A stretch of DNA of 64,000 nt. It comes from Fodinibius salsisoli. GTDB lineage: Bacteria; Bacteroidota; Rhodothermia; Balneolales; Balneolaceae. The DNA lies in the NCBI RefSeq assembly GCF_026229185.1, contig NZ_JAGGJA010000013.1:1-64000 (forward strand), written 5' to 3'. This document shows positions 26,899 through 49,324 of the stretch, piece by piece. Position numbers and translations under genes: made by a program. How positions within the stretch are numbered: the first letter of the stretch is position 1; every line of letters begins with the position of its first letter. A model generated the notes under the pieces. That model searched no databases. It was not told where the DNA came from and saw only the letters and a program-made list of their open reading frames with translations.

Positions 26899-26949
26899 CT
26901 AGGGAAAACAAATTCTAAGACATAGCTCTTAACTATTCAATCCTCCTGA

Positions 26950-27038
26950 CCTCCTTCTCCAAGGAGGAACCCGTTACTGAAGATAGGAACTGTACATTTC
27001 TTGAGGAGCTGTCATCAAAAGTCCCTCTTGGAGAAGAG
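26950..27038. repeat. Pair of similar hairpins in opposite orientation
   Basis: cctccttctccaaggagg (26950-26967) and ccctcttggagaagaggg (27021-27038) are each palindromic. The reverse complement of the second closely matches the first, so about 70 bp of DNA is bracketed by inverted copies of the same hairpin. Such TCTCCAAGA-type palindromes are scattered in many Bacteroidota genomes. Confidence 0.6.
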
Positions 27039-27095
27039 GGATTTAGGGAGATTGACTGCCTCCAATAATCCTCCAACCGGTAAACGTGCTTTTTA

Positions 27096-45172: not shown

Positions 45173-45568
45173 TTAGTGTTCCGAATGCAATGCTACACGA
45201 TTTCCTTCCGTATCCTCAATGATGGCCATAAAGCCGTATTCATCGGTAATTTTGGTTTTAGGCTGAAATATCTCTCCGCCAGCATCCTTTACTTCATCTA
45301 AGGCCGACTGGAGATCCGGGTTTGCATTCAAATAAATAAGCGCACCTTTTTTGCTCGGCTTGTAGAACTCTTTATGTTCACAGAGTGCACCACTGACGCC
45401 CATCTCAGCGGTAGGAAACATGCTCATTTTCAGTTCATCACCCATATCCATATCAGCCATTTCGATATCTAATATGCGCTGATAAAATTTCTTGGCCCTC
45501 TTTAACTTTTTAACAGGAATTTCAAACCAAGCTACTGCATTTTTTCTTTCTTTTACGGTTGTTTCCAT
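45173..45568 (-). CDS. VOC-superfamily (glyoxalase/bleomycin-resistance) protein
   Basis: 131 aa, a single pair of beta-alpha-beta-beta-beta motifs: AWFEIPVKKLKRAKKFYQRIL, and C-terminal FMAIIEDTEGNRVALHS. The SALDEVKDAGGEIFQPKT stretch is typical of small VOC proteins. The metal ligands are only partly visible (first His replaced by Phe/Glu-like positions), so it may not be a metal enzyme. GGGAGGG upstream marks the start. It sits between hutG and hutI; a link to histidine use is not shown. Confidence 0.82.
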   Translation of the reverse strand: METTVKERKNAVAWFEIPVKKLKRAKKFYQRILDIEMADMDMGDELKMSMFPTAEMGVSGALCEHKEFYKPSKKGALIYLNANPDLQSALDEVKDAGGEIFQPKTKITDEYGFMAIIEDTEGNRVALHSEH

Positions 45569-45632: not shown

Positions 45633-46847
45633 CTATTTTCTTTTTTCTCCCTTAATAAAAATATCAGTACAGGCATTCCCCTTGTAGTGATACATCCAGA
45701 AGTCCGGGTCTGGCGCATCAATCACGGCAAAATCAGCTGACTTACCCTCTTCGATGGAACCCACTGCGCGATGTCGGTGGATGGCTTTAGCGGCAATCAG
45801 CGTAGCCCCTTTTAGCACCTGCGCCGGCGTCATCCGTCCCTGGTTACAGCTTAACATCATGGCCAGTGGCAAACTATAGCTTGGGGCCGAACCAGGGTTG
45901 AAATCAGTCGCTACTGCTACTTCTACCCCTCCTCCAATTAAACGCCGGCAGTCCAGCGGCTGCTCTTGCGTATATAGCGAAGCTAATGGCAATGTAACGC
46001 CAACCACACCCGCTGCTGCCATAGCTTCAATTCCTGCATCCGAAATTTTTTCTAAATGATCGGCACTGGCGGCTTCCAGTTCAGCAGCAAGTTCAGCTCC
46101 TCCGCAAGAAGTCAACTGATCGGCATGCAGCTTTGAATGAAGCCCATAAGTCTGGGCTGCTACCAGGATGCGGCGCGACTCCTCAATTGAAAAGGCTGAT
46201 TCTTCGGTAAATACATCACAAAAATTGGCAAGCTTTTCTTCGGCAACAGCGGGAATCATCTCTTCAATCACCAGATCAATATATCCCTTCCGGTCGTCCT
46301 TAAATTCCGGTGGAATGGTATGGGCGCCTAAAAAAGTCGGGATAACATTGACCGTATAGTGTTGATCCAGCCGCTTATATACACGCAGTAGCTTCAACTC
46401 CTCTTGGAGCGACAGTCCGTAGCCGCTTTTACATTCAACGGTTGTAACTCCCAGCCGAATCATTTCTTCTAAAAAGCCTGATGCTCTCTCATAAAGCGCA
46501 TCTTCGGAAGCTTCTCTGGTGGCCTTGACGGTTGAAAGAATTCCACCCCCGGCTTTTGCAATTTCCAGGTAGCTCTTACCACTAACCCGCATTGCAAACT
46601 CATCGGAGCGCCCCCCCCCAAACGCCAGGTGGGTGTGGCAATCTACCAGTCCCGGGATGACCATCTTACCACCAGCATCATGGGCGGACTCATTATTATA
46701 TTTTTCTGGCAAATCGATTTCTTGGCCGACCCATTCGATCGTACCATCCTTCCAGGCTATGGCTGCATCTGTTATGGGATAGATATCTTCCTGCCTCCCT
46801 TCATCTTTGCACGTTGCCAAATATCCAATGTTTTTTAGAACAGGCAT
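45633..46847 (-). CDS. hutI: Imidazolonepropionase
   Basis: 404 aa amidohydrolase. Third step of histidine breakdown: 4-imidazolone-5-propanoate to formimidoylglutamate. Zinc ligands VDCHTHLAFGGGRSDEF, then CKSGYGLSLQEELK, TFLGAHTIPPE, KLHADQLTSCGG and ATDFNPGSAP match the family. The last residues end in FIKGEKRK. An 24-bp palindrome and a DUF559 gene have been inserted just upstream of the start, between it and the neighbour VOC gene. Confidence 0.95.
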   Translation of the reverse strand: MPVLKNIGYLATCKDEGRQEDIYPITDAAIAWKDGTIEWVGQEIDLPEKYNNESAHDAGGKMVIPGLVDCHTHLAFGGGRSDEFAMRVSGKSYLEIAKAGGGILSTVKATREASEDALYERASGFLEEMIRLGVTTVECKSGYGLSLQEELKLLRVYKRLDQHYTVNVIPTFLGAHTIPPEFKDDRKGYIDLVIEEMIPAVAEEKLANFCDVFTEESAFSIEESRRILVAAQTYGLHSKLHADQLTSCGGAELAAELEAASADHLEKISDAGIEAMAAAGVVGVTLPLASLYTQEQPLDCRRLIGGGVEVAVATDFNPGSAPSYSLPLAMMLSCNQGRMTPAQVLKGATLIAAKAIHRHRAVGSIEEGKSADFAVIDAPDPDFWMYHYKGNACTDIFIKGEKRK

Positions 46848-46863
46848 ATTTACCCTCCCTGTT

Positions 46864-46887
46864 TCCCTCCCTATGCATAGGGAGGGA
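46864..46887. repeat. 24-bp perfect palindrome next to DUF559 gene (left)
   Basis: tccctccctatg followed by its exact complement, lying 4 bp after the stop codon of the DUF559 gene and 17 bp before the hutI start codon. The ccctccct/agggaggg arms are shared with the palindrome at the gene's other end. Confidence 0.75.
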
Positions 46888-46891
46888 TCTC

Positions 46892-47257
46892 TTATTTTAA
46901 ACTATTTAAAATTTTCTGCTTTACATCATCCATATTCTGCAGCTCTTCATTGCGTAATCGCAAAACTTCTAATCCTAATTCCTGTAAAACAAGATCCCGA
47001 TTATAATCATACTCCTTTTGGTAATCATGAATTTGCCCGTCCAATTCAATAACCAATTCCGCTTCTGCACAATAAAAATCAGCGATAAAGAAAAATCGTT
47101 GCCCCTTCTTTTTATTGTATACTATTGGATGTTGTCTTAAAAATTTATATCCATATAGTTGCTTCCTCCGAAGTTGTTGCCATAGCTTCTTCTCAGCATC
47201 AGTCTGATGTTTTCTCAGCCGACGTGCGAGATCTCGAATTTTGCTCCACTTTGTCAT
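46892..47257 (-). CDS. DUF559 endonuclease-like protein
   Basis: 121 aa, full length for the DUF559 family, a PD-(D/E)XK-type fold related to Vsr repair nucleases. The N-terminal RRLRKHQTDAEKKLWQQLR, then GYKFLRQHPI, the catalytic-type D60 in ADFYC, E71-x-D73 in VIELDGQIH (H77), and the final LRLRNEEL are all present, so it is probably active. DUF559 proteins are frequent in this phylum with unknown roles. It splits the hut genes and is flanked 4 and 17 bp away by related palindromes, which suggests a recent insertion. Expression by read-through from the VOC gene upstream is possible. Confidence 0.9.
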   Translation of the reverse strand: MTKWSKIRDLARRLRKHQTDAEKKLWQQLRRKQLYGYKFLRQHPIVYNKKKGQRFFFIADFYCAEAELVIELDGQIHDYQKEYDYNRDLVLQELGLEVLRLRNEELQNMDDVKQKILNSLK

Positions 47258-47274
47258 AACAGACTCTTAATTAG

Positions 47275-47298
47275 CCCCTCCCTGTTTATAGGGAGGGG
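47275..47298. repeat. Palindromic repeat next to DUF559 gene (right)
   Basis: cccctccct (47275-47283) pairs perfectly with agggagggg (47290-47298), loop 6. Lies 17 bp upstream of the DUF559 start and 16 bp past the VOC stop codon. The arms match the palindrome at 46864-46887. Confidence 0.75.
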
Positions 47299-47314
47299 AT
47301 GGGGTGGGTATAAT

Positions 47315-47746
47315 TTACCCTATCACATTTCCCTTCTCATCATACTCCATATAAGGATTGTAGGCAATTTCCCACAGATTCTCTTCCGGGTCCGCAATAT
47401 AGCCGCTATACCCGCCCCACGGCGTTTTTTCAGGTTTTTTGGCAACAGACGCCCCCTTTTGTACCAGGTTTTCAAAAAGAGTATCCACCTCCTCTTCGGA
47501 TTGCAGGTTATGAGCCAGGGTGAAAGGCTTAAAGACCGTACCATCTGCCCTTACCTGTGCATCTTCAGCAAGGTCTTCTTTTCCAAATAATGCCAACTGG
47601 ATGCCATTAAGCTGGAAGAAGGTAATGTTATCATTGCTGTTTTCAGTAGCTTGCCAGCCAAAAACATTCTCGTAAAACTGTCGCATCTTTTTAATATTAC
47701 TTACTCCTATTGTTATCAGTGTCAGTCGCTGTTCCATTCTCTTCAT
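47315..47746 (-). CDS. VOC-superfamily glyoxalase-like protein
   Basis: 143 aa. VOC pattern: LTLITIGVSNIKKMRQFYENVFGW, then ITFFQLNGIQLALF, a helix SEEEVDTLFENLVQKGASV and GGYSGYIADPEENLWEIAYNP with the final Glu metal ligand. Probably a lactoylglutathione-lyase-like enzyme; substrate unknown. The start could be three codons later (47737). It lies between hutH and the DUF559 insertion on the same strand, so it is likely in the hut transcript. Confidence 0.85.
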   Translation of the reverse strand: MKRMEQRLTLITIGVSNIKKMRQFYENVFGWQATENSNDNITFFQLNGIQLALFGKEDLAEDAQVRADGTVFKPFTLAHNLQSEEEVDTLFENLVQKGASVAKKPEKTPWGGYSGYIADPEENLWEIAYNPYMEYDEKGNVIG

Positions 47747-47827: not shown

Positions 47828-49324
47828 CTACACCATCTCAACCAGCTTATTTTCTACTGCGGCCACCATACTTCGATCCTGTAATAACTCCACTGCTTTA
47901 TTGATCTCATCCTTAAAATAATGATCGGTCGTGGCATGTGGAATGGCATCCCGTACAAAATTGTGAGCTACATCCACACCTTTGCCCGGCTTTAGCGGCT
48001 TACGGAAGTCCAGTGCCTGGGCCGCCGAAAATAATTCAATGGCCAGCACCTGCTCCACGTTCTGATAGACCTCCAGTAACTTCAAGGCGCTGATGCTTCC
48101 CATACTCACATGATCTTCTTGCCCCAGGCTGGTTGGAATGGAATCAACGGAAGAAGGATGACACAGCACTTTGTTTTCGGAAACCAGTGAGGCCGAGGTG
48201 TATTGCGGGATCATAAAACCTGAATTGATACCCGTCTCTTCCATCAACAGTTCGGGCAGTCCATCGTGCCCTTCCAGTAACAGGTAGGTGCGTCGTTCGG
48301 AGATACTGGCAAATTCGGCCAGGGCAATTTTGGCGTGATCCAAGGCCAGGGCCAACGGCTGACCATGAAAATTACCTCCGCTTATAATATCCCCATTTTC
48401 AAAAACTAATGGATTATCCGTGACGGAATTCAGCTCGGTTTCTATAACTTGTCGGCTGTAGCGCAGGCCATCGCGACTGGCTCCATGCACTTGCGGCACG
48501 CATCGCAGGCAGTAGGGGTCTTGCACCTTCCCGCAGTGGCGATGAGACTCTAAAATTTCGCTCTCCACCAGTAATTCACGTACATTTCTTGCCACTTCCT
48601 GCTGGCCCATGTGGGGACGTATTTCATGAATCCGCCGATCAAATGGTTTGATACTGCCCTGCAGTGCTTCCAGGCTCATGGCTGCAATCAGATCCGCTGC
48701 TTTCATCAGGCTCAGTGCTTTCTCCAGCACATATGCTCCGTAGGCGCTCATCAGCTGCGTACCATTAATGAGAGACAATCCATCCTTTGCCTGCAGGTCA
48801 ATAGGATCCAAATCATGCTGATCCAACACTTTTTGAGCAGGAATGGTATCCGTACCCTCGTTATTCCAGAACAAACCGTAACCCAACAGCGGCAGAGCCA
48901 TGTGCGCCAGTGGAGCCAGGTCTCCGGATGCACCCACACTTCCCTTTTCCGGCATCGCGGGGATAAGATCGTGATCAGAGAAGTAGATCAGCCGGTCAAA
49001 GGTTTCCTCGGAAATTCCTGAATTTCCCAATCCCAGGGAGTGAATTTTGAGCTGCAACATAAGCCGAGAAATATCTTTGGGGATCAGCTCGCCTACGCCT
49101 ACGGAATGCGAAAGAATCAGGTTTCGCTGGAGCTGCTTAAGCTGCTCTCCCTTCACCCGCTTATTGGCCAACGCGCCAAAACCCGTATTGATGCCGTACA
49201 TGGGCTCATCGCTACCAAGAGCCTCCTCAACGATTGCCCGGGCTTTTTTAATCGGAGATTTATCCTCTTTCAATGAGGCAATACTCTGTTTAAGATCAGG
49301 ATACAGACTGGAAAGATGAATCAT
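47828..49324 (-). CDS. hutH: Histidine ammonia-lyase
   Basis: 498 aa. First step of histidine breakdown: non-oxidative release of ammonia to give urocanate. The MIO cofactor forms from A132-S133-G134 in GSVGASGDLAPLAH. YGINTGFGALANKRV, GTQLMSAYG and the QDHVSMG-like EDHVSMGSISALK are all present. Full length. The first gene of the hutH-VOC-DUF559-hutI-VOC-hutG minus-strand run; divergent from the quinone-reductase-like gene. Confidence 0.96.
   Translation of the reverse strand: MIHLSSLYPDLKQSIASLKEDKSPIKKARAIVEEALGSDEPMYGINTGFGALANKRVKGEQLKQLQRNLILSHSVGVGELIPKDISRLMLQLKIHSLGLGNSGISEETFDRLIYFSDHDLIPAMPEKGSVGASGDLAPLAHMALPLLGYGLFWNNEGTDTIPAQKVLDQHDLDPIDLQAKDGLSLINGTQLMSAYGAYVLEKALSLMKAADLIAAMSLEALQGSIKPFDRRIHEIRPHMGQQEVARNVRELLVESEILESHRHCGKVQDPYCLRCVPQVHGASRDGLRYSRQVIETELNSVTDNPLVFENGDIISGGNFHGQPLALALDHAKIALAEFASISERRTYLLLEGHDGLPELLMEETGINSGFMIPQYTSASLVSENKVLCHPSSVDSIPTSLGQEDHVSMGSISALKLLEVYQNVEQVLAIELFSAAQALDFRKPLKPGKGVDVAHNFVRDAIPHATTDHYFKDEINKAVELLQDRSMVAAVENKLVEMV

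Follow-up and report, generated by a model that had tools for sequence, protein, structure and literature searches.

We found that a DUF559 gene of Fodinibius salsisoli and the two C-rich palindromes beside it are best explained as one REP-type mobile unit that has a Vsr-like nuclease where REP systems have a RAYT transposase; we put the probability of this reading at roughly 0.7. It draws on what we observed at many loci, namely the association of DUF559 genes with hairpins, its subtype specificity, the mostly inverted orientation of the repeats, their joint arrival with the gene, empty sites and dispersed solo repeats, together with the conservation of the nuclease site and in-frame insertion into coding genes. 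The recognition of the repeats, the cutting of DNA, the repair step and mobilisation in trans are inferred.

A DUF559 gene between two tailed palindromes

The window is the whole stretch of DNA analysed, 64,000 bp long (G000:C4:1-64000), in a genome of 4.85 Mb (G000). The unit within it, comprising the outer tails, the two palindromes and the DUF559 gene, was delimited from the sequence and a triplex scan at 46853..47309 (no strand assigned). The gene itself (46892..47257, minus strand) is complete and encodes 121 aa. Downstream of it lies a perfect palindrome, TCCCTCCCTATG/CATAGGGAGGGA (46864..46887, no strand), and upstream a second one with a 6-nt loop, CCCCTCCCT/AGGGAGGGG (47275..47298, no strand), the gaps to the gene being 4 bp on the left and 17 bp on the right and the arms CCCTCCCT/AGGGAGGG being common to both. 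A strict pattern of these palindromes has two matches in the window and none in 100 shuffles. Across the 4.85-Mb genome it occurs at four distinct places, the two window copies, C7:68029 and C12:21045, with a second DUF559 gene about 400 bp from the palindrome at C7:68029. Additionally, we observe a G-rich tail outward of each window palindrome, absent from the first-pass annotation, that mirrors the purine arm. On the right side the order is AGGGAGGGG-AT-GGGGTGGGT, the tail GGGGTGGGT (47301..47309, plus strand) being the mirror of the purine arm AGGGAGGGG, and the left side follows the same plan, with a tail at 46853..46860 (minus strand) that could supply the third strand if an intrastrand triplex forms. 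Only 5 nt separate this left tail from the start codon of hutI, and its sequence resembles a ribosome-binding site.

The left neighbour of the unit is hutI (imidazolonepropionase; 45633..46847, minus strand) and the right neighbour a VOC-family gene (47315..47746, minus strand), beyond which lies hutH (47828-49324); these names were assigned from the translations, without a family search, and are provisional. The unit had been described as interrupting the histidine-utilisation genes, and this stands as far as the region is concerned; since it sits between hutI and a VOC-family gene, it is inside that region without having a canonical hut gene on each side. VOC-family genes flank hutI on either side in the window (45173-45568 and 47315-47746). 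Elsewhere in the window, at 26940..27051 (no strand), two triplex-type hairpins stand as a solo pair lacking a DUF559 gene, and their arms match another DUF559 subtype (L038, L042, L043) that occurs in congeners and was not found in the window's genome.

The window protein matches the Pfam family DUF559 (PF04480) over nearly the whole model, with 107.9 bits against a cut-off of 20.6 (E 3e-31), and this match, the coordinates above and the empty shuffles confirm the earlier claim of a complete DUF559 gene with palindromes at 4 and 17 bp. Its AlphaFold2 model (pLDDT 89.5) resembles N. gonorrhoeae NGO0050 (3hrl; Z 13.6), the catalytic domain of I-Bth0305I (3r3p; Z 10.8) and Vsr (1vsr; Z 8.2), a comparison supported by Foldseek and sequence search. 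We predict from this model a Vsr/I-Bth0305I-type PD-(D/E)XK nuclease that keeps the catalytic residues E22, D60, E71, D73 and H77; nuclease activity is inferred. Upon examining the corresponding columns in other DUF559 copies, D60 and E71 were found in 139/139, D73 and H77 in 138/139 and E22 in 136/139, a pattern suggesting that selection maintains the nuclease site, fused copies included. A stop codon interrupts the matched part in nine of the 139, a sign that some copies are decaying.

Hairpins accompany DUF559 genes across taxa

The window's genome has six DUF559 genes, and C-rich palindromes were found near all six, both by eye and by script. We extended the survey to 54 DUF559 places from 38 related genomes, 19 of which were positive, to the best 80 of 330 confirmed relatives, kept as named loci from a scan of genome contigs with one DUF559 subtype, and to 10 of 43 plasmid records, hand-picked across taxa. 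The best 80 of 330 come from Bacteroidota, Balneolota, Acinetobacter, cyanobacteria, Elusimicrobia, Neomarinimicrobia, a Methanophagales archaeon and others. A few of the 80 may coincide with places from the related genomes, as L012/L158, L015/L161 and L030/L169 look alike; such pairs were left unmerged in the counts.

A pyrimidine/purine hairpin within 350 bp was present on at least one side at 118/144 DUF559 places and on both sides at 74/144, a set that includes the best 80 of 330. Without five matches that are weak or unrelated, the proportion becomes 118/139. Among control genes, hairpins were found beside 0/67 others in the same loci and 5/285 in 400 kb of the window's genome. A stricter earlier count gave 62/80 named loci (the best 80 of 330) against 4/324 pseudo-positions, and in the plasmid set hairpins were detected at 10/10 places by a looser scan and at 9/10 by script. 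At 26/144 places the script found no hairpin; these comprise the five weak or unrelated matches, and the others are degraded or are cases such as Pedobacter L193, L215 and L224. A hairpin beside a DUF559 gene is the rule, not a coincidence. The flanking palindromes that the first-pass annotation proposed to look for across DUF559 genes are therefore present at 118/144 on at least one side, and the outcome it had named as refuting, equal frequency beside random genes, is ruled out by the controls.

Architecture of the hairpins

Triplex-forming BoxC/PIT repeats have been known in E. coli since the 1990s; thousands of genomes are reported to contain them, and no enzyme has been assigned to them. 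By their architecture, the hairpins beside DUF559 genes are BoxC/PIT "intrastrand triplex" repeats, as the tail mirrors the purine arm in the plan of these motifs; that a triplex forms is inferred. Both window copies meet the definition, with a pyrimidine arm, a purine arm and a third strand mirroring the purine arm. Across 160 tailed hairpins the tail-arm mirror score has a mean of 0.952 and is at least 0.85 in 145/160, whereas tails swapped between loci give a mean of 0.809 and a maximum of 0.827 in 200 shuffles. Both tails are readable at 55 places, and at 49 of these they are inverted relative to the gene. Furthermore, ycjD, the DUF559 gene of E. coli K-12, has a repeat of BoxC/PIT form just downstream, which we take to be a listed BoxC copy.

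In a 2015 paper, BoxC/PIT motifs are described as abundant and widespread and as orphans, genetic mobility activities never having been seen around the E. coli sites, and the words DUF559 and endonuclease do not occur in it (PMC4666352). The CGTC repeats (Di Nocera 2013) were considered as another possible identity and rejected, both window copies lacking the CGTC end motif; that link was dropped because the repeats beside DUF559 are of the C-rich triplex type. Some Rickettsia palindromic elements (RPEs) are reported to be CGTC repeats (PMC3733652).

Occupied and empty sites

We found hutI at high identity in 11/12 genomes of the genus, and at the hut site a DUF559 gene or hairpin occurs in the window's genome only (0/10 other congeners). 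The empty sites that the first-pass annotation had suggested seeking in relatives thus exist in all ten congeners, and its other refuting outcome, a hut locus that carries the gene in every relative, did not arise. In three congeners hutH directly abuts hutI. A second case is provided by genome G030, where the unit is in frame within a loop of the editing domain of leucyl-tRNA synthetase (LeuRS); it is absent in 20/20 relatives searched, and 11 of these, read as sequence, have a short variable loop without the palindrome. On the sequences compared, LeuRS is a clean case of repeats arriving with the gene. One criterion for a mobile element, presence and absence at orthologous sites, is met at both loci (hut 10/10 empty, LeuRS 20/20 empty).

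Variable occupancy was also observed elsewhere. A fabI-ycjD-sapF query was covered over at least 80% of its length in 3363/5426 E. coli genomes, and in two of the remaining genomes, which were fetched, TetR/RND genes follow fabI. At this site (L238, L239), ycjD with its repeat alternates with an RND efflux operon, the similarity breaking about 40 bp past the repeat. According to a 2026 paper, phylogroups A, B1 and C, as well as ST69 and ST182, have ycjD where the eefRABCD operon would otherwise stand (PMC12817139). Units also interrupt operons, as in sufB-DUF559-sufC of Sphingomonas and paaD-DUF559-paaZ of Deinococcus (L150 and L157). For the S. meliloti (L155) and Synechocystis (L153) plasmids, no second full or uninterrupted copy at high identity was found. 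Carriage as phage cargo was considered and rejected, the window protein matching only 2/50,697 phage records, which suggests that the unit, if mobile, moves mainly within chromosomes.

These sites also bear on the alternative that survives best, although we consider it unlikely: that solo BoxC/PIT pairs were there beforehand as the target and that the DUF559 gene is a parasite homing into them via double-strand break repair. The closest solved folds do include a homing endonuclease, the two-hairpin unit is directly repeated on both sides at several loci (L026, L044, L151), and flanking direct repeats of at least 50 bp were found at 24/141 places versus 4/137 controls. The clean empty sites, however, lack the repeats as well (0/10 at hut, and only the short variable loop in the LeuRS relatives), and most two-sided loci are inverted, not direct (49/55). 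Flanking inverted repeats of at least 40 bp were found at 17/141 places versus 1/137 controls.

Arms follow the DUF559 subtype

We compared arms and proteins between genomes. Arm similarity tracks protein similarity with r 0.354 across 824 pairs from 43 loci of related genomes, after removal of same-site pairs that share a neighbour (an earlier version of the test gave r 0.42). When arms were permuted within genomes, a design that controls for base composition and genome identity, 0/5000 permutations reached this value (mean 0.118, maximum 0.305). Arms of the CCCTCTCC type were observed at 59/65 RRQHP-type loci having arms, against 2/41 other loci.

The same motifs were found as solo copies. 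Genome G020, a carrier of an RRQHP-type gene, holds 33 solo CCCTCTCC hairpins, three others hold 3-4 and 34 hold none, while CCCTCCCT hairpins number 12 in G004, 4 in the window's genome and 1-2 in four genomes, with none in 32; reversed control patterns of both hairpins gave 0 matches. A third pattern (CCCCCTT with a tail) occurs at 1-3 places each in five genomes. Motif presence goes with the cognate DUF559 subtype (Fisher p 0.005 and 0.009, with subtypes called manually from the protein sequences), the exceptions being G028, where the CCCTCTCC motif occurs but DUF559 has no match, and G003, G009 and G020, where the CCCTCCCT motif occurs but the window subtype does not. Judged from sequence alone, the arms follow the DUF559 subtype and also occur genome-wide as solo copies.

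This matching weighs on a further and quite improbable alternative, in which the repeats are moved by another enzyme, the DUF559 gene is a captured passenger and the nuclease acts elsewhere, in very short patch repair or similar. The Caulobacter protein VsrA, of the same domain family, has been studied as a mismatch-repair enzyme: it is a proposed mismatch-repair endonuclease, and cells deprived of a cytosine methyltransferase need it in vivo for a DNA-damage response; the string "palindrom" is absent from that paper (PMC12907096). Solo repeats without any DUF559 gene also exist, as in G028. A captured gene would not show subtype-following arms, however, and we observe arms that match the subtype from genome to genome and vary among the copies within a single genome; moreover, no other enzyme gene is present in the unit at the window locus. 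That this small gene, widespread in bacteria, is nearly always accompanied by hairpins matching its own protein subtype instead suggests that gene and repeats form one tiny mobile unit. The earlier inference that palindromes and gene move or persist together gains support from the subtype match, the LeuRS case and the solo copies, with movement itself remaining an inference.

Units in frame within host genes

In 42/148 places the reading frame of DUF559 is joined without a break to that of a host protein, a count that takes in four further plasmid records used nowhere else and leaves out L058, an unrelated weak match. In 23 of these the frame is open on both sides, in one it is cut by a contig end, and in 18 it is continuous on the C-terminal side only. 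Pfam named the hosts for 38 in-frame ORFs, among them the restriction-modification proteins HsdR, HsdM, type ISP and Eco57I-type, as well as DUF1156, LeuRS (in two phyla), MnmE, urocanase, cobalamin-dependent methionine synthase and a radical SAM protein. N-terminal fusions of DUF559 to HemF, HemD, TrpA, HisF and RimM were also found. At the in-frame loci L228, L193, L224, L226 and L033, the script found no recognisable hairpin.

The several fusions to HemD in Flavobacteriia and to HemF in Balneolaceae were probably each inherited from one event, and the HemD and HemF fusions, together with the HsdR and HsdM insertions at recurrent sites, may stem from few inherited events. In four genomes DUF559 reads through the palindrome into HemF, a coproporphyrinogen oxidase (L004, at G000:C39:257534-257863, L024, L035 and L040), possibly an exapted fusion. 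The HsdR units L022, L184, L188, L192, L198, L209 and L231 apparently occupy one and the same position in organisms of several phyla, an archaeon among them, and the HsdM units L165, L178, L180 and L222 seemingly share one site; these recurrent sites could reflect homing, the spread of restriction-modification genes or a tolerant loop. The same leucyl-tRNA synthetase loop is invaded in L033 and L226, from different phyla.

That the hairpins merely terminate transcription or stabilise the mRNA of a repair gene that stays in place, with nothing moving, is scarcely credible: strong hairpins near gene ends are common signals in general, but here they lie on both sides, the two window copies lack a T-run, in-frame units have their hairpins translated as part of the protein, and relatives lack the gene at the corresponding site.

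Proposed mechanism and implications

If gene and palindromes form a REP-type mobile unit, the DUF559 nuclease would recognise the repeats of its own subtype and would cut or nick DNA at the repeat or at the target, and host repair would copy the unit, with its gene and flanking repeats, to a new place. The repeat pair alone might likewise be copied in trans, which would give rise to solo repeats. Such a spread would resemble that of RAYT transposases, which are thought to move REPs. No insertion event was seen, and no target-site duplication was found with the relatives at hand, which are too distant for base-exact junctions. A 98-bp direct repeat at L041, considered as a target-site duplication, was rejected as a tandem duplication, since the 3' end of another copy of DUF559 lies within it.

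We see an even chance for a broader hypothesis, in which DUF559 proteins are the long-missing BoxC/PIT enzymes and, with their repeats, make up a third prokaryote-wide REP-type class, a Vsr/homing-type nuclease reads an intrastrand triplex, and ends open in frame let the unit invade and persist in essential genes, occasionally as a fused domain (HemD, HemF, TrpA, HisF). The link joins two unsolved families, the widespread DUF559 genes, mostly without a role, and the BoxC/PIT repeats, without an enzyme. If true, an orphan class of bacterial repeats would gain its missing enzyme, a nuclease type would join the few enzymes known to disperse REP-like DNA, a natural system for DNA triplex recognition would be at hand, and many database entries taken for "fusion proteins" might be mobile units that have inserted. 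The question would be directly testable in E. coli K-12, with ycjD and its neighbouring repeat.

Comparison with known systems

No earlier report of a link between DUF559 and palindromes was found among open-licence PMC papers, those on DUF559 with palindromes or transposition having been judged off-subject by title, and the RepRanger paper does not mention RAYT, DUF559 or endonuclease. In Legionella evolution experiments, mutation and recombination are reported to have been concentrated in segments that carry a transposase together with DUF559 (PMC12308824).

The published BoxC/PIT repeats have the same pyrimidine arm, purine arm and mirror purine tail as the repeats described here, which differ in adjoining a DUF559 gene, whereas the class as published is an orphan without an enzyme. 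Among enzymes, the nearest characterised folds to our model are the EDxHD/Vsr-like homing endonucleases (I-Bth0305I) and Vsr; in contrast to these, the DUF559 gene has triplex repeats around it, no intron or intein was noticed, and no mismatch-repair partner gene is present at the window locus. RPEs are likewise palindromic units in frame inside protein genes, but they are not known to carry a gene, whereas DUF559 units carry a nuclease gene and C-rich arms.

The closest likeness is to the REP/REPIN-RAYT system, in which short dispersed palindromes often form inverted pairs, a low-copy gene is flanked by them and solo copies occur (PMC3733652). The first-pass annotation had likened the layout to a RAYT with its REPs but with a PD-(D/E)XK-type protein, and a REP-like unit with a Vsr-like nuclease has indeed become the best reading. 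The criteria for a REP-RAYT element (REPtron) are not met, as DUF559 is the sole protein of the unit and GTAG is absent from both copies. The REP-RAYT enzyme is an HUH tyrosine transposase of the IS200/IS605 family and its palindromes are GTAG-tagged, whereas the enzyme of the DUF559 unit is predicted to be a Vsr-like PD-(D/E)XK protein and its repeats carry a mirror-image purine tail. Overall, the unit would work like REP-RAYT but is not one, because it has neither an HUH transposase nor a GTAG tag.
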